Shown here in pieces: positions 14,385-25,980 of a stretch of DNA of 64,000 bases (position 1 is its first letter; the number at the start of each line of letters is the position of its first letter). A model generated the notes under the pieces. It had not been told where the DNA came from. It made no database searches and saw only the letters and a list, made by a program, of their open reading frames with translations. A program made the position numbers and the translations under genes. Source of the stretch: Verrucomicrobiota bacterium (GTDB taxonomy: Bacteria > Verrucomicrobiota > Verrucomicrobiia > Chthoniobacterales > Terrimicrobiaceae); NCBI GenBank assembly GCA_018970255.1, contig JAGWWS010000002.1:1-64000 (forward strand). The letters run 5' to 3'.

Positions 14385-15760
14385 TGGACTACGATTTCGT
14401 CGCCATCGGAGGGGGAAGCGCGGGCTATGCGGGGGCCCGCACGGCTGCGGCACTCGGTTTGAAAACCTCCGTCATCGACGGGGGGAATGAAATCGGCGGA
14501 CTCTGCATCCTTCGCGGGTGCATGCCGAGCAAGGCGCTCCTCGAATCCGCGGAGCGCTTCCGGGCGATGCGCCATGCGGCCGAGTTCGGGCTCGCCTGCG
14601 ACAACCCGCGGTTCGACACCGCCGCCATCGTCCAGCGCAAGCGCCGGCTTGTTTCGGAATTCGCCAGCTACCGGCGCGCGCAACTGGAGGGCGGACGGTT
14701 CGATTTCATCCGTGGCCGGGCGGAGTTTGTTTCGGAAAACGAAGTCCTGGTGGATGGCTCGCGCCGGGTTTCTTCGCGGAGCTTCCTCATTGCCACGGGC
14801 TCCGAAATCGCCGTGCCGCCGGTTCCCGGCCTCGCGGGGGCGGGTTGCCTGACGAGCGACTCGATGCTCGAGCTGGAGAAGTTGCCCGGCTCGCTCATCG
14901 TCCTCGGGGCCGGGGCGGTCGGCCTCGAGATGGCCAGCTACTGCCGGGCGTTCGGCTGCGAAGTCACCATTGTGCAGCGCAGCCCCCAAATCCTGAGCGG
15001 CACCGACCCCGATGTGGCCGGCGAACTCGAAGCAGCCCTCCGCGCCGACGGCATCGGGATTTTCACGGGAACCCAACTCAATCGGGTGGACCCCGGTTGC
15101 GTGGAATTCACAAAGGGTGGCGAGACCCACAGGCTGGAGGCAGATGCGGTGCTGAATGCCCTCGGGCGAAAACCCGCGCTCTCTGTCCTTGGAAATTCGG
15201 GGGTCCCAACCAGCAGGGGCAAGATTTCCGTCGATGAAACCATGGCCACGGCTGTTCCCCACATCTTCGCGGCCGGGGATGCCTGCGGGTTCCTCGAAGT
15301 GGTGCATACGGCAATCCAACAGGGCGAAACCGCGGCTTCAAATGCCGCCCTGCTGCTCGGCAAGCGCGGCGGCGAACCCAGCCTGATGGACTACCGGTTG
15401 AAACTTTTTGCCACTTTCACCGAGCCCGCGCTCGCCAGCGTCGGGGCCACGGAGGCCGAACTGCGCGCCCAGGGCAGGGATTTTGCCACGGCTTCGTATC
15501 CCTTCAACGACCACGGCAAATCCATCATCATGGGGGCGAAATTCGGGTTCGTAAAACTCACAGCCTGCCGGCGCACCGGCGAAATCCTCGGAGGCGCCGT
15601 GGTTGGCCCGGGGGCGCCGGACTTGATCCATGAAGTCGCAGTGGCCATGCACCACAGGACCAGCGTCCGCGAATTCGCAGCCATCCCTCACTACCACCCC
15701 ACCCTCGCCGAAATCTGGACCTACCCCGCGGAGGAACTCGCCGATAGCCTGGGAATTTAA
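14384..15760 (+). CDS. FAD-dependent pyridine nucleotide-disulfide oxidoreductase
   Basis: The 458-residue enzyme has an N-terminal FAD site (VAIGGGSAGYAGARTA), a redox-active disulfide Cys41/Cys46 in GGLCILRGCMPSK, an NAD(P) site (VLGAGAVGLEMA) and the second FAD motif IFAAGDACG. The C-terminal dimerisation domain keeps the HPTLAE motif, so the active-site base is present. It resembles the dihydrolipoamide dehydrogenase/mercuric reductase group, but the classical lpdA is at 52.8 kb, so this one probably has another disulfide substrate. GTG at 14381 is an alternative start. Confidence 0.85.
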   Translation: MDYDFVAIGGGSAGYAGARTAAALGLKTSVIDGGNEIGGLCILRGCMPSKALLESAERFRAMRHAAEFGLACDNPRFDTAAIVQRKRRLVSEFASYRRAQLEGGRFDFIRGRAEFVSENEVLVDGSRRVSSRSFLIATGSEIAVPPVPGLAGAGCLTSDSMLELEKLPGSLIVLGAGAVGLEMASYCRAFGCEVTIVQRSPQILSGTDPDVAGELEAALRADGIGIFTGTQLNRVDPGCVEFTKGGETHRLEADAVLNALGRKPALSVLGNSGVPTSRGKISVDETMATAVPHIFAAGDACGFLEVVHTAIQQGETAASNAALLLGKRGGEPSLMDYRLKLFATFTEPALASVGATEAELRAQGRDFATASYPFNDHGKSIIMGAKFGFVKLTACRRTGEILGGAVVGPGAPDLIHEVAVAMHHRTSVREFAAIPHYHPTLAEIWTYPAEELADSLGI

Positions 15761-16707
15761 TCCGAAAGCAGGTTTTTCGGCCGCTCGTCGGGTTTTCCTT
15801 CGGACTTCTTGGCGGATGGCATTTCGACAGGGCGGTCTCTAATCGAAGGAACAGGAGGCGCCCCCTCCGGAGCGGCAGGCTGCATTTTTTCGTCGAGTTC
15901 GGTTTCGACCGCTCCGATGACTGATGCCGTGTCGTTTGGTCCGATGACCATTGCCGGGCGTTTATCTCGCTGGGTATAGGTTTTTCTCTCGAGCACCTCG
16001 CCGTTCAGGCCGACCAGCGAGTAGAGGAAGGTTTTCGGTGCGAGGTTTTGGAGAATGTGAATGCGGTTGCGCGTGTCGAGTTGCACATCGGGAACACCAT
16101 AGGAAACAATGCGGCCGAGGCGGTGTGTGCAGAGCACACTGCGTTTCTCAGGATCGACAATTCGAAGGTAGAGCTGGGAGCTGGAAGGAAAGCGGTGGGT
16201 GAGAAGAGTAATGTCACGCGTCCCTCCTCCGCCGGGTTCTTCTGCCGGAACTCCGACTGATTTCGACCAAATCGTTCGGCCCTCTGTGATTTCAATGTTC
16301 AGTGGCGGCGAGGTGAAGGTGCCGAACGGTTGTGCGTTGACGCTGGCGCGGACGCGGTAGCCGCCGTATTCGGCCAGTGGATAGAGCGGCGCGAGGTTGA
16401 CCGCGCGAGTGATTTTCTGGCCGGGCTCAAGGAGAATTGGTGGATTCGTGTGCGAGGAACAACGAGGAGCAACTGGGCGGCCATCGAGGGTTTCGATCAG
16501 GAATCCGAACCAACGGGTGTTTCCGCTATCGGCAAGATTAAGGGCATTACCGGTGCGGTTGGTGATGCTGACATTCACGATCAGCGGTTCGTAGGCAATG
16601 TAGAGCGTTCGCTTGAATTCAATATCCACCTGAAGCCGCGCCACAGCAGGACCAGCCGACGCAGCCAGCAAGAGCAGTGCAAAAAAAGCGCGGCTCGCGC
16701 GGATCAT
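15757..16707 (-). CDS. Exported hypothetical protein, last gene of the pseudokinase-FGE operon
   Basis: The 316-residue protein has a signal peptide (about 1-23, MIRASRAFFALLLLAASAGPAVA). Beta-rich segments follow (VDIEFKRTLYIAYEPLIVNVSITNRTG and similar), suggesting an Ig-like extracellular fold, then a charged Pro/Glu/Lys tail (about 270-316). I know no family. Its ATG overlaps the stop of the upstream gene as ATGA, so it is translationally coupled to the pseudokinase-FGE protein. Its stop overlaps the 3' end of the convergent oxidoreductase by 4 bp. Confidence 0.7.
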   Translation of the reverse strand: MIRASRAFFALLLLAASAGPAVARLQVDIEFKRTLYIAYEPLIVNVSITNRTGNALNLADSGNTRWFGFLIETLDGRPVAPRCSSHTNPPILLEPGQKITRAVNLAPLYPLAEYGGYRVRASVNAQPFGTFTSPPLNIEITEGRTIWSKSVGVPAEEPGGGGTRDITLLTHRFPSSSQLYLRIVDPEKRSVLCTHRLGRIVSYGVPDVQLDTRNRIHILQNLAPKTFLYSLVGLNGEVLERKTYTQRDKRPAMVIGPNDTASVIGAVETELDEKMQPAAPEGAPPVPSIRDRPVEMPSAKKSEGKPDERPKNLLSD

Positions 16708-19556
16708 TGCGCAGGTGGACCGTCCGAAACCGTGCGGAATCCAAGCGTTTCATCGCTCATGAGTTCGTCGAGTTTGATGACGCGACGAGTGGATGCAGAT
16801 CCGGCCGGGTTTTTCCAGTTGCCTCCGCGAATGACGGGAATTTGTTCTCCCGGCATCTCGGGATCCTCGGCCAGGGTGGCGGTCCACTCTGAAACATTTC
16901 CGGCCAAACCGACGACTCCGTATGGGCTTTTGTCCGAAGCAGGCTGATTGACCGGACTGGAGCGCTTGAACCCATCCTGCTCTCCGCCTTTTTTAGGATC
17001 GGGGTTCGCGGTGAAATCAGCGCCAGTGTTTGCGCGCTTGAGTTCCTCCTCATCGCCCCATGGATATTTCCAGCCCTGCTGACCCCGGGCGACTTTCTCC
17101 CATTGCTCCTCGGTCGGGAGTTTGCGGCCCTTCCAATTCGCATAGGCGTAGGCGTCGAACCAATCGACGCCAAAGACAGGGGAATCCAAAGAGAGCGCCG
17201 CGCCTTGATACTGGCCCCATTTGCGCGCCCGGTTGAAGTAGCCGGGATTCGGGGGCTCGAGCTGGGTCTCATCCGCCCAGCCTTTTGGCACATGGGATTT
17301 TCCGGGCGGTTGGGATGGATGGGCGATTCGCGCGGCGAGACCGGGATCGGCGGCCAGCGCATCGAGGAATTTTTTGTATTCGTAAATCGAGACCTCGTAT
17401 TTCGAGATGTAGAATTTCGGCAGTTCCTTGCGCTCGTCCTGATAAGCGAATTCGCCGGCGGGAATTTCGATCATGGCTCCCAGATCATCGACCTGAATGA
17501 TGCTGGAACTATTGAGATGATAGTAAATCGCGAAACAGGCGGCGGCCGTGAGGGCCAGCGAGATGCTGCTTCCAATGATGACACGCGAGCGGCTTTTTTT
17601 GCGGTTTTCTCCCACAGCACGGGAGACAGCAATGTCGCGCGCTTGAATCTTCGCGGCATCGGCGGGGGCTGCTTTGGGCAATTTACTCTCGGCGAGTGCG
17701 GCAACCTCGGGCCATGTGATGGGCTGGTCCGCAGCACGAAGGAGACTGGCGGCAACCTCGCGGGCCGGCTTGGAGTCGGCGGATTGCGGCAGGGATTTGT
17801 GGATGAACCCGCCGAGAGCCTCCATCTCCGATGCATCGGAGGGAGTGGACGAGGAATCTCCACAGGCGATGTTCGCTAGTCGCGGGAGGCCTCCGGGTTT
17901 GAGCAAAATCGCCTCGGCAGTAAGCGGTTGATGGGCGATGCCTTCTTTCGAGAAGTATGCGAGGGCCTCAGCGACAACCTTGAAAATCTGGAGCGCAACC
18001 AAAGGCTTCAACGTTCCGCCTTGCGCCTGGATTTGTGCCAGAGTGGGAACGGGGGCGAATTCGCTGGAGTAAAAGTGGAAGCCCCTATCAGAACCGCCCT
18101 CATAAACAGCAGCGATGGTCGTGTGAGACACACGCGCCTTTGCGCGCGAGTCAGCGAGAAAGCGCTCCAGCACGGCAGAATCTTTGGCTGATTCCGGATC
18201 CAAAACGGTGAGCAAAACCTGACGCTCGATATTTGTTTGCCGGGCACGGTAGAGGCGCTCGGTTTGGAATTTTGCGGAGAGTGATTGGATTTCGTAATTT
18301 CCAAGCGTGGTTCCAACCAAATCGTCGGGGGGTAATTGGGCTCGGACCGGACCAGCCTTGGCCTTGATTGCTGGCGCGGGAGTTGGTTTGGCCTGCTGCG
18401 CCGCAGGGGAGACGGCAACATTGACCACCTTGGGAGCAACCGAGGCGACCGCTGGCTTTATCGATGTTTGAGGAGGTGGAGGCGGAGTTTGCGCAAGTGG
18501 CTTAGGGGGCGCCGCGGTGGCTGCAGGAGTCGGCGGAAGCGCAGGTTTCGCGACCGGCGCCGTGTTTTTGGGCGACACGGCGGGCACTGGTGAAGTCGGC
18601 GCAAAAGGGCGTGGAGCCGGTCCCCCCGGTTTTACAAAGCCGGTCGGCATCGACTGGGCAGGCTCTTCGAACTTTATGGTGGTCGTGGGAATCCGAGGAC
18701 TCGGTTTTGTGGGTCCCTTGACCAAATCGGCGGGAGCTGGAGGTAGTTTTTGCTGCTGAGGTTGGGGAGGAAGAGATGCGGTTGCCGGTTTCGATGTAAC
18801 AACAGCAGTTGGAGGAGGTGGCGGAGCAGAAGTTGGCTGGGGCGCTTGGGGCAGCGGCGCTGGTGTTGAGGATACGGGCTTAGATGGTTCCGGCGCAGAC
18901 GGCAAAGCCTTGGGAGAGACCGGAACCTCTGTTGCCACCTTTACAACCGGCGGCTCAGGCGAGGCAGGTTTTGCCTCACCTTTTTCTAAGGCAGGTAAAG
19001 CCTCCGGTTCATTCTTGGCTGATTTTTTTCGAGGGGTTTTCTTTTTTGTTTCCTTGGTTGAAGCGGGAGTTTCGGGTTCCGCCGTCTTCGGCACAGACGC
19101 GGAAGGGGTTGGTGTTTGGACTTTGGGCTCAGGTGTCGGAGCGGGCTGAGCCTCGGTCACTGGAGCCGAAACAACAGGCATGGGCGTAGGCTCTTCGACC
19201 CGAGGCTCACCGATCAGTTCCACAAGAGTCTTGCGGAGGGTTTCGGGATTCAGCGGCAGCGAAAGGAAGGGGGCTCCGGAGAGACGGTCCGCGTAGGGTG
19301 AGATATCGAATTTTGAGCTAAACAAAATCCGCATGTCCGGCAAAAAGGGCGCCACCGTGTCCCGCAGAGTGAACCCATCAGCCGGTGAGAAATAGACCTC
19401 GGAAATCAAAAGATCGCATCCGCCGTTTTCATTCATCCAGACGACTGCATCGTCCGAGTTGTGGGCGACACCCGGTCGGGGCCAGCCCAAATCAACGAGC
19501 ATTTTAGAAAGATCATCCGTGATTTGGGATTCGGTGAAAGCGAGGAGGATTTTCAT
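16704..19556 (-). CDS. Receiver-like, Pro-rich, pseudokinase, TM and FGE-sulfatase multidomain protein
   Basis: The 950-residue protein has five parts: a degenerate response-regulator receiver (1-117), a long Pro/Ala/Lys linker (120-410), a kinase-like domain (about 420-620), a transmembrane helix (659-680) and a formylglycine-generating-enzyme-like domain (690-950). The FGE part shows MIEIPAGEFAYQDE, GRKLPTEEQWEKVARG, YPWGDE, GLAGNVSEWTA and VIRGGNW. The receiver has Glu53 where the phospho-acceptor Asp is expected (LLISEVY). The kinase lacks the ATP lysine (LLTVLD, Thr450) and the catalytic Asp (AHQPLTAEA), and has NIA in place of DFG, so it cannot phosphorylate. The FGE domain would sit outside the membrane. 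The gene overlaps both neighbours by 4 bp. Confidence 0.8.
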   Translation of the reverse strand: MKILLAFTESQITDDLSKMLVDLGWPRPGVAHNSDDAVVWMNENGGCDLLISEVYFSPADGFTLRDTVAPFLPDMRILFSSKFDISPYADRLSGAPFLSLPLNPETLRKTLVELIGEPRVEEPTPMPVVSAPVTEAQPAPTPEPKVQTPTPSASVPKTAEPETPASTKETKKKTPRKKSAKNEPEALPALEKGEAKPASPEPPVVKVATEVPVSPKALPSAPEPSKPVSSTPAPLPQAPQPTSAPPPPPTAVVTSKPATASLPPQPQQQKLPPAPADLVKGPTKPSPRIPTTTIKFEEPAQSMPTGFVKPGGPAPRPFAPTSPVPAVSPKNTAPVAKPALPPTPAATAAPPKPLAQTPPPPPQTSIKPAVASVAPKVVNVAVSPAAQQAKPTPAPAIKAKAGPVRAQLPPDDLVGTTLGNYEIQSLSAKFQTERLYRARQTNIERQVLLTVLDPESAKDSAVLERFLADSRAKARVSHTTIAAVYEGGSDRGFHFYSSEFAPVPTLAQIQAQGGTLKPLVALQIFKVVAEALAYFSKEGIAHQPLTAEAILLKPGGLPRLANIACGDSSSTPSDASEMEALGGFIHKSLPQSADSKPAREVAASLLRAADQPITWPEVAALAESKLPKAAPADAAKIQARDIAVSRAVGENRKKSRSRVIIGSSISLALTAAACFAIYYHLNSSSIIQVDDLGAMIEIPAGEFAYQDERKELPKFYISKYEVSIYEYKKFLDALAADPGLAARIAHPSQPPGKSHVPKGWADETQLEPPNPGYFNRARKWGQYQGAALSLDSPVFGVDWFDAYAYANWKGRKLPTEEQWEKVARGQQGWKYPWGDEEELKRANTGADFTANPDPKKGGEQDGFKRSSPVNQPASDKSPYGVVGLAGNVSEWTATLAEDPEMPGEQIPVIRGGNWKNPAGSASTRRVIKLDELMSDETLGFRTVSDGPPAQ

Positions 19557-20560
19557 TGGGGCTTGCTTTGGAGGTAAAGGGGAAGTGGGTGTTCGCGCGC
19601 AAGGGTGCCTGGATCGGCACGGGTGTCCTGAAGTTCGCTGTTGTAGTAAATGCCCACCACATAGCCTGCATACTCCAGTACGACTCCATTCGATGGCGTG
19701 TAAACCGCGTTGAGCAATTCAGGCTCTTTTTCGGACCAATTCACAGGAGGGCTGATCCACTCGGTTTGAATCTGTGACTCGGTGAGAAGCACATTCCCGC
19801 TGGCGTCGCGATCGTAGAAGAAAACGTGCACCGCCATTCGACGCGGGTCGATTTTTGTATCAGGGCGGCCCTTGATCGCAATGCGAAGCTCCTTTGACCC
19901 AGCTGCGCCATCGGCCAATCGGGTGTCAACAATCCCCAAGCTGGCACCCGGCTGAAGACCGAATTCGTCACGCATATCGGCCCCCTCTGCCGCGGCCTCG
20001 ATAGTGGGGGCTGTTGGCGCTTCAGGAACCTTGATGGTGGCGAGCTTGCGTTGGGTTTGCTCCCGCAGTTCGGCAGGAAGCTCGGGCATCTCAAGGACTT
20101 TTTTGTAGGTGGAAAGTGCCTCAGCGGGTTTCCCCATTTTTTCCTGAAGCCTGGCGATTCTCAGGAGAATTCCAGCATCCGTTGGAACCAGCTTTTCCGC
20201 CTCCCGAATCTTGGAGAGTCCGAGATCAAAATCCCCAATGCGAAATGCCTTATCGGATTCACTTACCAACTCCTTGACCCGGTTCACCAGTGCGCTGTCT
20301 ACCGCTGGTTGATCAGCCGGCGTAACGGGAACCTGCTCAACAGGCGCTTGAGGAGGCATCTCGGCCGGGGCCGATGCAGACTTATTCGAGGAACCTGTCA
20401 AAAGCTTCACCACGCTTTGCTGGAGCCCCGGAAGAAAATGGATGCCGATCGCTAGAATTTGCACCACCAGAAACACACCCAATAAAGCAGCAGCGAGCTT
20501 GAAAGCCTTTCCGAGTGATGGTTTGCGGGGAGCGGGGTTCGTAACGACGGTCTGGCTCAT
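19553..20560 (-). CDS. Membrane-anchored TPR-like protein
   Basis: The 335-residue protein has one N-terminal transmembrane segment (about 22-44), a Pro/Ala linker, two TPR-like helical repeats (about 95-165, including DSDKAFRIGDFDLGLSKIRE and LQEKMGKPAEALSTYKKVLE) and a beta-rich C-terminal domain (about 195-335) with PRRMAVHVFFYDR and YAGYVVGIYYNSEL. It is the first gene of a three-gene operon joined by two ATGA overlaps. A role as scaffold for the downstream pseudokinase-FGE protein is inferred from this coupling only. The upstream gap to the methyltransferase operon is 63 bp, so read-through is possible. Confidence 0.7.
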   Translation of the reverse strand: MSQTVVTNPAPRKPSLGKAFKLAAALLGVFLVVQILAIGIHFLPGLQQSVVKLLTGSSNKSASAPAEMPPQAPVEQVPVTPADQPAVDSALVNRVKELVSESDKAFRIGDFDLGLSKIREAEKLVPTDAGILLRIARLQEKMGKPAEALSTYKKVLEMPELPAELREQTQRKLATIKVPEAPTAPTIEAAAEGADMRDEFGLQPGASLGIVDTRLADGAAGSKELRIAIKGRPDTKIDPRRMAVHVFFYDRDASGNVLLTESQIQTEWISPPVNWSEKEPELLNAVYTPSNGVVLEYAGYVVGIYYNSELQDTRADPGTLAREHPLPLYLQSKPQ

Positions 20561-20623
20561 TGGAGGAGCGGAATATCTATGTGTTGCCGCTGAAAAATCA
20601 AAGAGCGAATCCTTGTCGCCCGA

Positions 20624-21238
20624 TCATCCTCGAAACCGAAATCGCAAAAACGCCTCCCTGCCTTCGCGTCCCGAAAAGGTGGCAATCATTGTCTCACGAT
20701 GCAGCAAATCGAACTTCTGTCCGAAGAATTGTAGAACCTCGCTCATTTGCGAACCAAATGGCGGAGACTCAGGGTCCTGATTATCGGGATTCAGGAAGAA
20801 AATCCCGAAAAGCTGACCGCCGACCTTCAAACAGTCTGCTGCGGCGGCGACATAGTCGGATCTCCGGGTTGGCGGGATGGCGCAAAAACAGGTGTGCTCG
20901 AAAATAGCATCGAATGGACCAAGGCACTTCGCATCTCCGGCGAGGAAATCGCCGAGCACATATTCCTCCCCTCCCCCTTTTGGAAATGCCCGCGCCGCTT
21001 GCAATGCCGCCGGGGCGATATCGAATCCAACAACCTCCGCAGCACCCGCCGAGGCGATTGCGCGGACATCATGTCCAGACCCACAACCAGGCACCAAAAC
21101 CCGACCCGTCAGTGGCGTTTTTTTCAAAAAATCCAGAAGTGCCGGGTGGGGCGCATCCTTGTCCCAAGGCGTGTCGCCCGCGAGGTAGCGCGATTGCCAA
21201 TCAACGGCGGCGCCAGCGTGTTCCGAGCGAGATGCCAT
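20624..21238 (-). CDS. TPMT-family SAM-dependent methyltransferase
   Basis: The 204-residue enzyme begins MASRSEHAGAAVDWQSRY, followed by GDTPWDKDAPHPAL, motif I RVLVPGCGSGHD and a second acidic motif VVGFDI. FEHTCFCAIPP matches the thiopurine methyltransferase/thiol methyltransferase family, which methylates thiols, selenium or halides. It is the last gene of a five-gene operon, and its start lies 38 bp inside the preceding methyltransferase gene. The start at 21238 was chosen from the family N-terminus. Confidence 0.8.
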   Translation of the reverse strand: MASRSEHAGAAVDWQSRYLAGDTPWDKDAPHPALLDFLKKTPLTGRVLVPGCGSGHDVRAIASAGAAEVVGFDIAPAALQAARAFPKGGGEEYVLGDFLAGDAKCLGPFDAIFEHTCFCAIPPTRRSDYVAAAADCLKVGGQLFGIFFLNPDNQDPESPPFGSQMSEVLQFFGQKFDLLHRETMIATFSGREGREAFLRFRFRG

Positions 21239-21944
21239 ATTGGAATTTCCGGGCGTGTTCACGGATGAGGAACGGAATGTCCTTCTCGAATTCGAGGTCA
21301 AAATGCGGCGCGAGAACAGCAGCCAGAACTTCGCGCGAGGTGTGAGAACCGGGCTTTCCGCCAAGCCAGTTCGACGGCGGTGTGAATTCAGCGAGCCAAG
21401 AAAATGGCGTTGCGAGCAAAAGCTGCCCGCCCGGCGCAACCAAATCCGGGAGGCGTTCGAGGAATCTCATCGGCTCCGGGAGGCGACAGATGAGGTTTGC
21501 GGCAAGAACCACATCGAAGCCGCGAAGCCCGGAGTTCAAAGACATCGCATCGCCGACCTCGAAGGAAACCCGCTGCGCGTCAATACCTGCAGGAATTGTT
21601 GCTGCAAAATCCTGCCTGACCTCCCCCTCGAGTGCGACGGATGAGGAAACCGAGCCATTCGCCGCCAACCCTTTTGCGGCATCGATGAAAGCCGCTGAAA
21701 AATCCACTCCGACCACCCGTTCCGCGAAACGCGCCAGTTCGAATGACGAGCGCCCGACGGCACACCCCACATCGAGGGCGCTGGAATTCTTCGACCCGCC
21801 GTCGAGCAATTGGGAAACAACCCGCGCGGGAAAGCCCCATGCTTCCGCGGGAACCGGCAAACCGCGCGCAGCTTCCCCGAACTCGGCGTAATGGAAAAAC
21901 AGGTAGTCCTCCACCATGCGCCGCTCCTCGTAGGGGTTCGCCAT
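21201..21944 (-). CDS. Stand-alone 4-mercaptohistidine N1-methyltransferase-like protein
   Basis: The 247-residue protein matches the C-terminal methyltransferase half of ovothiol synthase OvoA: MANPYEERRMVEDYLFFHYA, ALDVGCAVGRSSFELAR, VVGVDFSAAFIDAA, and AANLICRLPEP with a downstream FEKDIPFLIREHARKFQ. In ovothiol biosynthesis this domain N-methylates 4-mercaptohistidine after the iron-dependent sulfoxide synthase has acted. That N-terminal synthase is not in the window. It starts 1 bp after the squalene-synthase-like stop, and its 3' end overlaps the TPMT gene by 38 bp. Confidence 0.75.
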   Translation of the reverse strand: MANPYEERRMVEDYLFFHYAEFGEAARGLPVPAEAWGFPARVVSQLLDGGSKNSSALDVGCAVGRSSFELARFAERVVGVDFSAAFIDAAKGLAANGSVSSSVALEGEVRQDFAATIPAGIDAQRVSFEVGDAMSLNSGLRGFDVVLAANLICRLPEPMRFLERLPDLVAPGGQLLLATPFSWLAEFTPPSNWLGGKPGSHTSREVLAAVLAPHFDLEFEKDIPFLIREHARKFQYGISLGTRWRRR

Positions 21945-21945
21945 A

Positions 21946-22827
21946 TCAGGGTCGCGGGGCGAAGACGGCACGGAAGAAAGCCGACCACACTGCGAAGCGC
22001 GGCACCTTGAGGTTCTCCCCGAGCGGATGCTCGGCAACCATCGCCAGCGTCTTCGTGCCAAGTTCGAGCGGCAACAGGCAAGCCGCGCGGAGCATTCGCG
22101 GTGCAACAGCCGCCGCATACTCCCGCCCGGCTTCAAGCAGCGCAGCGGCATTTTGCATCTCGGGATAAAACCGCTCGTCCGGAATATAAATCCGACCGCG
22201 GGCGGCATCGCCACGGCGGTCCCGCAGGATGTTCACAAGTTGGAGCCCCTGCCCGAAGCGGTGCGCAAGCGGCAGCAGTTCCTCCAGAGGGCGGTTGGCG
22301 TATCCAGGGATGTTTTTGAAACAAATGCGCGTCCAGAATTCGCCAACACTTCCCGCAACCTTCGCAGTGTAATCGGAGACTTCCTCCGGCGAGAGCGGAA
22401 ACGCGGGCGAGTCGTCCTCCGCCGCCGGGAAGCGCTCGATGTCAAAAATCTGCGCGCCAAGAATGGTGCGCCAAACCCCGAGGATTTCCCCCGAATCCGG
22501 CAAGGCGGGAATCGCCGAGAGGAGTTGCGGGAACACCGCCAGCAAATCCCGCTCGGCACCGGACAATCCAAGGTCGGGGCATTTTTCGGGAAACGAATCC
22601 GGCAGAGCGCGCAGAAGTGCGAGGCGCTGGAAGTCGGGCGCGGAAGACGCATCGGCAATTGTGTCCGAAGCACGCGCCAGCATGTAGGCAAGCGAGAGGG
22701 TCGGGCGCACGGATGCCGGCAGCACGCGCAGCGAGAGTTGGAACGACCGCGCACAGCGCCTCACCAGGACATCGAATGCCCGCGTATCGAGGATGGTTGC
22801 GGACAGCGGCTTCGCGGCGGGACTCAC
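21946..22827 (-). CDS. Squalene/phytoene-synthase-family protein
   Basis: The 293-residue protein has the trans-isoprenyl diphosphate head-to-head synthase fold. It contains LSLRVLPASVRPTLSLAYML, the first aspartate motif ASDTIAD (Asp55 and Asp59) and the second, NILRDRRGD (Asp203 and Asp207), followed by GRIYIPDE. The metal-binding aspartates are retained, so it may be active. The first motif resembles squalene synthase rather than phytoene synthase. It starts at GTG overlapping the alpha-E stop as GTGA. No hopanoid or carotenoid genes adjoin it, which is unusual for this family. Confidence 0.8.
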   Translation of the reverse strand: MSPAAKPLSATILDTRAFDVLVRRCARSFQLSLRVLPASVRPTLSLAYMLARASDTIADASSAPDFQRLALLRALPDSFPEKCPDLGLSGAERDLLAVFPQLLSAIPALPDSGEILGVWRTILGAQIFDIERFPAAEDDSPAFPLSPEEVSDYTAKVAGSVGEFWTRICFKNIPGYANRPLEELLPLAHRFGQGLQLVNILRDRRGDAARGRIYIPDERFYPEMQNAAALLEAGREYAAAVAPRMLRAACLLPLELGTKTLAMVAEHPLGENLKVPRFAVWSAFFRAVFAPRP

Positions 22828-23783
22828 AGCCACCGGCAATAGGTGCCCCAAAGGGCGTTGGAAACCGCGCCGAGGCGCACCTGGATTTGGTCGAGGTATT
22901 GGTGGAGCCCGGTTTGGAAAATCTGGTCCACCGTTGTGAAATCCAAATTCGAGCGGAGCATTCCGGACAAACGCTCCGCCTCGTTCGCAAAATGCCCGCG
23001 GTCGGACCCCGAGATGCTGTGCAGGGCGAGGTCGAGCGCATCCACGCAAAACCGGATGGAGCGCGGGAACGAGTCGTGGAGGACGAGGAACCCGGCGACA
23101 TCCCAAGCCGAAACGCGCCCGTGGCTGAGCTTGAAGTAGGCTTCCATCGCGCTGCAGGAGCGAAGCACTGCCATCCATTGCGTGATGTCCACATTTCCGC
23201 CGACTTCTTCCTCGCTGGGCAACAACACATGGTATTTGAAATCGAGGACGCGCGAAGTGGAGTCCGCCCGCTCGATGTATTTGCCGGCTTGCAGAAATTG
23301 CCACCCCTCGCCGTGTGTCATCGTCGCATCGGTCACGCCTTGGAACGCATGCAACCTTCCGACCAACCCACGGTAAAAGCCAATCGGGCTCTCGCGGAAC
23401 GCCGCCCGCGCTGCGGGGCTGTGTAGATAAAGAAACTGCCCGTTCAACTCCTCCCACATCTCGCTCGAAATCTGCTCGCGAACCGTCCGCGCATTTTCCC
23501 GGGCGCAAGTGACGCTCGAGAGAATCGAGTTCGGGTTGGTTTTTTCAAAAGTCACAAAATCCATCACCGAGTCCGGCGATGGCTCCGGGTGCAGGGTTTC
23601 GAAGAGGTCTTTGTCCTGGAGAGTAGCGAGGATGGGCAGCCAATGCCCGTCGGAGGAACCGGAATTCTGGTCCTCGAAATCCAGCACGAGCTGCATGTTG
23701 ACATCTAGGATGCGCGCGCAGGTCTCGGCACGCTCGAGGTAGCGGCTCAGCCAGAGGCAGGAATCGGCGACCCGGCTCAGCAT
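22824..23783 (-). CDS. Alpha-E domain protein (DUF403)
   Basis: The 319-residue helical protein begins [20 protein letters not shown], the standard alpha-E opening, and also shows [23 protein letters not shown] and [19 protein letters not shown]. Alpha-E proteins nearly always accompany circularly permuted ATP-grasp enzymes in a predicted peptide-forming or modifying system whose product is unknown. Here it overlaps the ATP-grasp gene by 7 bp and the synthase gene by 4 bp. It is probably cytoplasmic, with no signal or membrane segment. Confidence 0.88.
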
Positions 23784-25228
23784 GCGTCCCCCTCGTCCAA
23801 AACCCAGGTGTCCTTGCTCCCCCCGCCCTGCGAGGAGTTGACCACGAGCGAACCCTTGCGCATCGCGACGCGCGTGAGCCCGCCCGGGATGATTGTGCAT
23901 TTCTCGCCCATCAAAATGTATGGGCGCAGGTCGATGTGCCGACCCTCGAATTTGCCGTCCACATAGCAGGGCGAGCGCGAAAGGCTGATGACCGGCTGCG
24001 CGATGTAGCCGCGCGGGTCGGCGATGATCGCGGCGCGGAATTTTTCGACCTCCGCCTTGGTGGCTTGGGGTCCGATCATCATCCCGTAGCCGCCGCTCTC
24101 GTTCGCCGCTTTGACCACGAGTTTCTCGAGATTTTCCAAAATGAACTTCCGGTCCGACTCCACCGCGGAAAGGTAGGTCTCCACATTTTGGATCAACGGT
24201 TCCTCGCCGAGGTAGAATTTGATCATCGCGGGGACATAGTAATAGGTGACCTTGTCGTCCGCGACGCCCGTGCCGAGCGCGTTCGCCAGGTTCACGTTCC
24301 CCTCGCGGTAGGCGTTCACGATTCCCGGCACACCGAGCACCGAGTCCTTCCGGAAAACCGTGGGATCGAGGAAATCGTCATCGACCCGGCGGTAAATCAC
24401 ATCGACCTGCTTGAGCCCCTTCGTGGTCTTCATGTAGACCCGCGCGTCCTGCACCACGAGGTCCTGGCTCGTCACAATCTCGATGCCCATGGAACGCGCG
24501 AGAAACGAATGTTCGAAGTAGGCGGAATTGTAGATTCCAGGGGTCAAAACAACCACCGTTGGGTCGGGGTTGCCCCCGGGCGCGACATGGCGCAGGGCGG
24601 CGAGGAGTTCCTGCGGATAAGCATCGACCGGACGCACCTGGTGCCGCGAAAAAAGTTTGGGGAAAACCCGCTTCATTGCCTGCCGGTTTTCCAGGAGGTA
24701 GGAGACACCGGACGGGCAGCGGCCGTTGTCCTCGAGCACCATGTAGTTGCCATCCGCGCCGCGGATCATGTCCGTGCCGCAAATGTGGATGTAGATTCCA
24801 TGCGGCACATCGAAGCCCACCAACTCCGGGCGGAAGTGTTTCGCCGTGGCGATGATCTCCCGCGGCACGATGCCCTCCTTCACGATCCGTTGGTCGTGGT
24901 AGATGTCCTGGAGGAAAAGGTTCAGCGCGCACAACCGCTGCTCGAGCCCGCGCTCGATGGTCTTCCATTCGTTCGCCGGAATGATGCGCGGCACCAGATC
25001 GAACGGCATAATCCGCTCGGTGCCCTCGTCGCCGCTGTAAACCGTGAACGTGATTCCCTGGCTGATGTAAGCCGCCTCCGCCAGCGCACGCTTGCGCTCG
25101 AAAGCCGCGGCATCCATTTCCGAAAACCGCTCGAGGAGGCGCTTGTAGTGCGGACGCACGGTTCCATCCGCCCCGAACATCTCGTCGAAAAAACCGCCGG
25201 TGTCGTAGTTGTCAAAAAGACCCTGCAT
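23777..25228 (-). CDS. Circularly permuted ATP-grasp protein (DUF404/DUF407)
   Basis: The 483-residue enzyme contains [92 protein letters not shown] and the terminal [23 protein letters not shown] (split here for length: [23 protein letters not shown]). These are hallmarks of type-2 circularly permuted ATP-grasp proteins, which probably form amide bonds at ATP cost. It is the first gene of the five-gene operon. Neither a transglutaminase-like partner nor the anbu peptidase often found with this pair is present; a terpenoid-synthase-like gene and two methyltransferases follow instead. Confidence 0.9.
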
Positions 25229-25279
25229 AGCCTAGTGTGCAGGATTTCCAAAGCCAGAGGCTGTTGGAAGGATAAAAAT

Positions 25280-25798
25280 CTACTCCTTTGCCGGTGCGAG
25301 AGGGTCGAAATCCCCGGCGGATGCCACGCCCGAGAATTTCGGGTAAACAAACCGTGCCGTTGTCGACTCCCCGCGGGTCACGCCCCGGACCACCGGAACA
25401 TCCCGGTCGCGGATGAACGCGAGCGAAGCCGCTAGCAGCGCCGTGCCAACGCCGCGGTTGCGGTATTCGTGCAGGATCATCGGACCACTCACAAGGTGGT
25501 TGGTGGCATCCCGCGATGGATCGAGAAGCGAAGCCCCGATGATGCGGTTGCCGTGAACCGCGACGATGCAAGGCGGGTCGGATTGTTTGAAAGACTCCTT
25601 CACAGAACCCCCGATAAAATCCTCAAGCCGCCGCTGGAGGTCGCTCCAGGATGGATCGAGCCCGAACGCCGTCAGGATCGTGCGTTGCACAACCTCGTCC
25701 TCGTCCTTGGTCGCCACGCGGATCGATAGCGGCGGAACACTCCAGGAGATCCCGCCAAGGTTTTTGGCGTCCCAAGAAAAACAAACCCAGCGTTTCAT
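25280..25798 (-). CDS. GNAT-family N-acetyltransferase
   Basis: The 172-residue protein has the GNAT core: IVAVHGNRIIGASLLDP (beta4), the acetyl-CoA pyrophosphate loop HEYRNRGVGTALLAASL and a C-terminal VTRGESTTARFVYPKFSGV. The substrate is unknown. It lies 51 bp upstream of the ATP-grasp operon on the same strand and may be its first gene. The start MKRWVCFSW was chosen over a longer frame because GGGGGGACC precedes it. Confidence 0.7.
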   Translation of the reverse strand: MKRWVCFSWDAKNLGGISWSVPPLSIRVATKDEDEVVQRTILTAFGLDPSWSDLQRRLEDFIGGSVKESFKQSDPPCIVAVHGNRIIGASLLDPSRDATNHLVSGPMILHEYRNRGVGTALLAASLAFIRDRDVPVVRGVTRGESTTARFVYPKFSGVASAGDFDPLAPAKE

Positions 25799-25980
25799 TC
25801 CCGGGTCCCCCCGGCTCCCAAGCCCGCGGACCGCATCAGGAATTTCCCCTGTCACGGCGGCACACCCACCAGACGCACCCCATCAAAGCCGAAACAACAA
25901 TCGCAAAAGCAGCAAATGGCATAACTGGACTCCATCTCCCAAATCGCCCGCCAGCGGTCAATGGAATTCCCGGTGTCGGC

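Follow-up and report, generated by a model that had tools for sequence, protein, structure and literature searches.

Do five genes that overlap or nearly touch on one strand make up one pathway? This question is raised by positions 20624-25228 of a 64,000-nucleotide stretch of DNA from a Verrucomicrobiota bacterium (contig JAGWWS010000002.1, positions 1 to 64,000; hereafter the window), where five open frames, all on the minus strand, encode a circularly permuted (CP) ATP-grasp protein, an Alpha-E protein, a squalene-synthase-like (SQS-like) protein and two methyltransferases. A preliminary description of the locus had taken them for one pathway. We compared the surroundings of these genes in related genomes and found that, in all of the 15 other genomes of the genus, the first three are together but the methyltransferase pair lies elsewhere. 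This implies that the window is probably a junction where two modules meet, each conserved on its own, rather than a single five-gene pathway, and a tempting five-gene pathway is thereby replaced by two testable units. The five genes, in the order in which they would be read, are the following.

23777..25228, minus strand: circularly permuted ATP-grasp protein of 483 amino acids (aa) (PF14403, 552 bits; 594 bits to PDB 3n6x)
22824..23783, minus strand: Alpha-E protein of 319 aa (PF04168, 320 bits)
21946..22827, minus strand: squalene-synthase-like protein of 293 aa, with a GTG start (PF00494, 116 bits)
21201..21944, minus strand: standalone OvoM/OvsM-type methyltransferase of 247 aa, with which the second module begins (TIGR04345, 186.3 bits, cut-off 170)
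20624..21238, minus strand: TPMT-family methyltransferase of 204 aa (PF05724, 99.5 bits; PDB 8ajp and 9h0g)

The layout and the gene families were confirmed as first described: the Pfam scores lie far above their cut-offs, and the coordinates give overlaps of 7 base pairs (bp) between ATP-grasp and Alpha-E, 4 bp (GTGA) between Alpha-E and the SQS-like gene and 38 bp between the two methyltransferase genes, with a 1-bp gap from the SQS-like gene to the first methyltransferase. The genes may be co-transcribed.

The SQS-like protein was searched for in 117 genomes, the window's own (2.56 Mb, assembled in 88 contigs) included, and its family proved to be order-wide, with a match in 114 of them. 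We fetched 109 loci around these matches, leaving out four (G021, G053, G064 and G111; E 2e-4 to 6e-4), and searched them with the window proteins by tblastn; each methyltransferase protein was searched for in 58 genomes. Gene calling by the longest open reading frame was replaced, as it chose antisense frames in GC-rich DNA and missed anchors. Calling by codon usage misses some short genes (in the window, that of the 204-aa methyltransferase), and the key counts were checked by tblastn.

In the 15 other genomes of the genus, the ATP-grasp, Alpha-E and SQS-like genes are found in the same order without exception (16 of 16 with the window). Alpha-E directly follows ATP-grasp in each of them, the 7-bp overlap is kept in 15 of the 15 that were fetched, the ATP-grasp protein is 79-88% identical throughout, and tblastn gave a match to a GNAT gene upstream of ATP-grasp in 13 of the 15. 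These four genes (GNAT-like, CP-ATP-grasp, Alpha-E and SQS-like) make up a first module, which the sampled members of one genus retain. Among the ten other genomes of the family, the trio was seen in two, G024 and G025, the latter with 1.2 kb between Alpha-E and SQS-like, and it was not seen in the family genome G018. In the 85 other SQS-like loci of the order, some of them shortened by contig ends, tblastn gave no match to ATP-grasp or Alpha-E. The upper module is a genus-level gene-order variant around a known ligase pair.

In each of the 15 other genomes of the genus, the two methyltransferase genes adjoin each other but share no contig with the SQS-like gene, and in none do they stand behind ATP-grasp/Alpha-E/SQS. 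Neither was found by tblastn in any of the 109 fetched SQS-like loci, some of which are shortened by contig ends, and none of 20 fetched loci of the OvoM-like gene has a match to SQS, ATP-grasp or Alpha-E. The separation is clearest in G010, an assembly of about 20 contigs, in which SQS is found at about 964 kb on a 1.0-Mb contig, and the methyltransferase pair at about 148 kb on another of 0.66 Mb. On these neighbourhood counts, a conserved five-gene system was rejected, and they speak against the proposal of a single pathway. Of the last three genes, which had been expected to stay beside the first two, both methyltransferases come away, and SQS stays in part, that is, in the whole genus and in the two family genomes, with none of the 85 loci from the rest of the order.

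The run of co-directional minus-strand genes is longer than five, with the GNAT-like gene upstream and three more genes downstream.

25280..25855, minus strand: GNAT-like acetyltransferase gene, the upstream neighbour of the ATP-grasp gene (PF00583, 29 bits, cut-off 20.7; start uncertain)
19553..20560, minus strand: 335-aa protein without a Pfam match
16704..19556, minus strand: 950-aa protein with a C-terminal FGE-sulfatase domain (PF03781, 124 bits) and a long proline-rich stretch
15757..16707, minus strand: 316-aa protein without a Pfam match

The lower module, a pair of methyltransferase genes, is widespread in the order. According to the match coordinates, the two genes are adjacent in 31 of the 58 genomes, the window's included, and within the genus their overlap is kept at roughly 30 to 38 bp. 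In four of seven fetched genus loci, the 335-aa gene and then the FGE gene come next after the pair, just as in the window; in L237 only the start of the FGE gene precedes the contig end, and the cluster of the 316-aa protein (c78) lies behind the FGE gene in L236, L238 and L240. Upstream of the pair, six of the seven loci carry a divergent gene of cluster c34 (representative YifB), at the place where the window has SQS. As the window's downstream half thus shares its order with relatives, the join to SQS is the new part, and a rearrangement in the window lineage probably put the second module one base behind the SQS-like gene.

How, then, did the SQS-like gene come to stand behind Alpha-E? 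The alignment of its family holds 100 rows of a possible 110 (the window plus 109 loci), and 95 rows entered the tree; the others were dropped by gene calling or by a 200-aa limit. In this tree, which comes from a short search, the genus forms a clade (SH-aLRT 99) inside a family clade (97). A DUF362 gene lies upstream of the SQS-like gene on the same strand, at no more than 379 bp, in 62 of the 95 tree rows, and overlaps it by 4 bp in 29; in one row the SQS-like gene lies at a contig end. Within the genus, a DUF362 orthologue is present in 16 of 16 genomes and adjacent to SQS-like in none; the copy of the window genome is at G000:C48:28333-29424, and in G003 the two genes share a contig at a distance of about 95 kb. 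In the simplest history, the SQS-like gene would be the order's own, would have left its usual partner DUF362 and would have settled behind Alpha-E in the ancestor of the genus or close to it, becoming closely coupled to Alpha-E. The ATP-grasp/Alpha-E label needs three changes on the SQS-like tree, and starred branches force at least two. Either one gain of the association with losses or two gains (G024, G025) would fit this tree. A literature search pairing DUF362 with squalene synthase found no paper, and the order-wide pairing of the two genes may point to unstudied chemistry.

The DUF362 proteins of the window genome and of locus L146 start with an apparent signal peptide; L146 and L158 are examples of DUF362 before SQS-like. 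Two genomes of 0.9 Mb, G031 and G040, retain the SQS-like gene, whereas ATP-grasp, DUF362 and the OvoM-like gene are all without a match there; G031 also has a second SQS_PSY gene. Outside the phylum, a relative of the SQS-like protein with 39% identity is encoded at L157:190-996, on a contig titled Elusimicrobia.

The SQS-like enzyme would most likely join two farnesyl diphosphates head to head into squalene or a close C30 relative, as its fold, its motifs and the literature suggest. The metal aspartates, which the preliminary description had called intact, are indeed present in both motifs of the window protein (DTIAD and DRRGD), and in the alignment of 100 rows the two aspartates of each DxxxD motif are kept in 90 of 90 and 99 of 99 rows having letters there. 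An AlphaFold2 model built from 13 sequences (pLDDT 87) was compared with solved structures by Foldseek; its 14 best matches are all squalene synthases, the human, Aspergillus and TcSQS enzymes first, and the comparison with 3vja gave a TM-score of 0.76 (query length) and an E of 2e-7. A profile search with the family alignment also ranks solved squalene synthases first, and the matches of the protein include CqsB4 and LvqB4, two carbazole prenyltransferases with the SQS fold. The motif VAGxVGEFWT is common to all 13 aligned sequences, the window's included, in a set without characterised bacterial enzymes. HpnC and HpnD belong to the same superfamily, but the window protein stays under both NCBIfam cut-offs (45.1 of 250.45 and 67.2 of 278.6 bits) and fits no NCBIfam equivalog. 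A second, HpnD-like gene of the window genome (G000:C54) is also under the cut-off, with 218 bits, and 15 of the 16 genus genomes (all but G001) have a second, stronger SQS_PSY match as well as the SQS-like gene.

In PMC9543262, a squalene synthase gene is reported for neutrophilic Verrucomicrobia, most of which are predicted to stop at squalene. This prediction agrees with the finding of squalene-hopene cyclase in just five of the 16 genus genomes (12 of 29 searched), several genomes being incomplete. A hopanoid-only role was rejected for the SQS-like gene, since the gene itself is present in 16 of 16. Around the cyclase of the window's own genome, inspection by eye of 9 kb of contig, with no family scan, revealed no hopanoid genes.

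The partner of the SQS-like gene in the upper module, the CP-ATP-grasp/Alpha-E pair (COG2308/COG2307), was reportedly described by Iyer et al. in 2009, and the window resembles it in having both domains at full length, adjacent and overlapping. A match to ATP-grasp was found in 94 of the 117 genomes, though some of these have no more than a weak match or one to the fused kind. Judging from what is known of the families, the pair would most likely form an ATP-dependent amide (peptide-like) bond. Its transglutaminase context is described together with Anbu in PMC5666114. Unlike in this frequent, non-universal context, neither transglutaminase nor Anbu is encoded by any of the eight window genes that were scanned for families (16704-25855). 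A second, fused ATP-grasp/Alpha-E copy of 839 aa lies elsewhere in the window genome (G000:C56, L151:8022-14138), with a transglutaminase next door; behind it follow the transglutaminase, a similar gene, a short-chain dehydrogenase-like gene and a polyprenyl diphosphate synthase-like gene, the last three named by eye. No solved relative of Alpha-E was found up to an E of 0.1, and a structure model of this protein from four sequences (pLDDT 41) was left unused.

Several observations weigh against a junction of two modules in which the SQS-like gene moved from DUF362 to Alpha-E. The order ATP-grasp/Alpha-E/SQS is unbroken in 16 genomes, the window's included, although the gene after SQS varies among at least six contexts, that of the window being one, so that selection for a functional link is possible. 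In 15 of the 95 tree rows, neither DUF362 nor ATP-grasp/Alpha-E lies upstream of the SQS-like gene. The protein is like squalene synthase in its fold, both DxxxD motifs and its profile match to solved enzymes, and unlike it in its score with the squalene synthase model (TIGR01559, squal_synth), which at 42.8 of 286.75 bits is so far under the cut-off that the product is not settled. Moreover, the junction of SQS and methyltransferase rests on one assembly of 88 contigs, and, as many relatives are fragmented and some fetched loci end at contig ends, absence near such ends is weaker evidence.

The alternative that survives best takes the genus trio to be a true pathway, in which the ligase pair would form an amide, with an isoprenoid either supplied or attached by the SQS-fold enzyme. 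While the constant order and the 7-bp overlap in the genus, the trio in two of the ten other family genomes (in one with the 1.2-kb interval) and the SQS-fold prenyltransferases among the matches would all fit with this, all 20 loci fetched from other genera likewise have Alpha-E after ATP-grasp, with no SQS seen within five genes and with differing genes behind Alpha-E. Furthermore, some genomes with the SQS-like gene, G031 and G042 for example, have no ATP-grasp match at all, and the tree puts the SQS of the trio inside the order-wide family. We consider this pathway unlikely. The ligase pair and SQS have stayed together in one genus and part of another, so a shared pathway is possible; but a single genus makes a narrow sample, and there is an ordinary role for SQS to play. 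Still, the coupling of ATP-grasp/Alpha-E to an isoprenoid enzyme throughout the sampled genus is a neighbourhood clue to the product of the pair. We give little credence to a more specific proposal, that the genus recruited an SQS-fold enzyme into an amide-forming ATP-grasp/Alpha-E operon and that the enzymes jointly make a terpenoid-linked peptide or amide; if true, it would provide a chemical handle on the product of this widespread pair.

An assembly error as the source of the join between the two modules is also quite improbable. The join is seen in one assembly only, and this one is split into 88 contigs, but the break lies between a stop and a start codon that are one base apart, which a misjoin would rarely give, and a search of the window genome with the methyltransferase gave no further full-length copy. 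A misjoin between the SQS-like gene and the first methyltransferase is thus unlikely, and rearrangement would be the more probable source of the junction. That all five genes form a species-specific pathway whose product is a small molecule both prenylated and methylated, as might be suggested by the close packing in the window and the single base between SQS and methyltransferase, is very hard to credit, given that in relatives the pair sits elsewhere, with the same genes behind it in four of the seven fetched genus loci, and that no other searched genome was seen with all five together; a joint product of the five is unlikely.

If the window is a junction of two modules, what would the second one do? 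The best PDB match of its first methyltransferase is OvsM (9bxh, E 7e-49), followed by OvoA and OvoM enzymes. The protein is like OvoM and OvsM, the 5-thio- and 5-selenohistidine N-methyltransferases, in matching over nearly its whole length and in exceeding the cut-off of TIGR04345 (OvoA C-terminal methyltransferase). The earlier label 'mercaptohistidine-type' holds as far as this family model (186.3 of 170 bits) and no further, as two motifs are changed in 31 of 31 standalone sequences and no OvoA over the cut-off is found in the window genome. The motifs were compared in 30 loci (L166-L195, the window's own L166 included) and the window sequence, which come from 30 distinct genomes of the 52 with a match. 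In contrast to the three solved enzymes, the Asp of NLIDRL is replaced by Cys, and RETxRKxQH becomes REHxRKxQ[YWF], with Thr changed to His and the last His to Tyr, Trp or Phe. The changed positions may touch the substrate. The N-terminal region of OvoA reaches at best 48.8 of 400 bits in the window genome; it exceeds the cut-off of 400 in one of the 58 genomes (G016, 655 bits), and five more reach 109-124 bits, under the cut-off. A strong match to the first methyltransferase (E < 1e-50) is present in 49 of the 58. An ovothiol pathway was rejected, based on the changed motifs and on the lack of an OvoA above the cut-off.

The closest solved relatives of the second methyltransferase are the halide/thiol methyltransferases of PF05724 (8ajp, 9h0g). 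Unlike thiopurine methyltransferase, it remains under the cut-off of TIGR03840 (54.3 of 223.2 bits), while that of PF05724 is exceeded; a literature search on thiol methyltransferase found no paper. The second module, with its OvoM/OvsM-like and halide/thiol-methyltransferase-like enzymes and, in part of the genus, three further genes, would probably methylate some small substrate, though not 5-thiohistidine, and the standalone OvoM-like enzymes, with their altered motifs, may point to unstudied chemistry. Nearly all of the 31 genomes with the methyltransferase pair are without OvoA over the cut-off. The family member G016 has a fused OvoA (G016:C116:54771-56828), whose methyltransferase domain keeps the acid (Glu) and the last His, and a separate standalone OvoM-like gene at C24.

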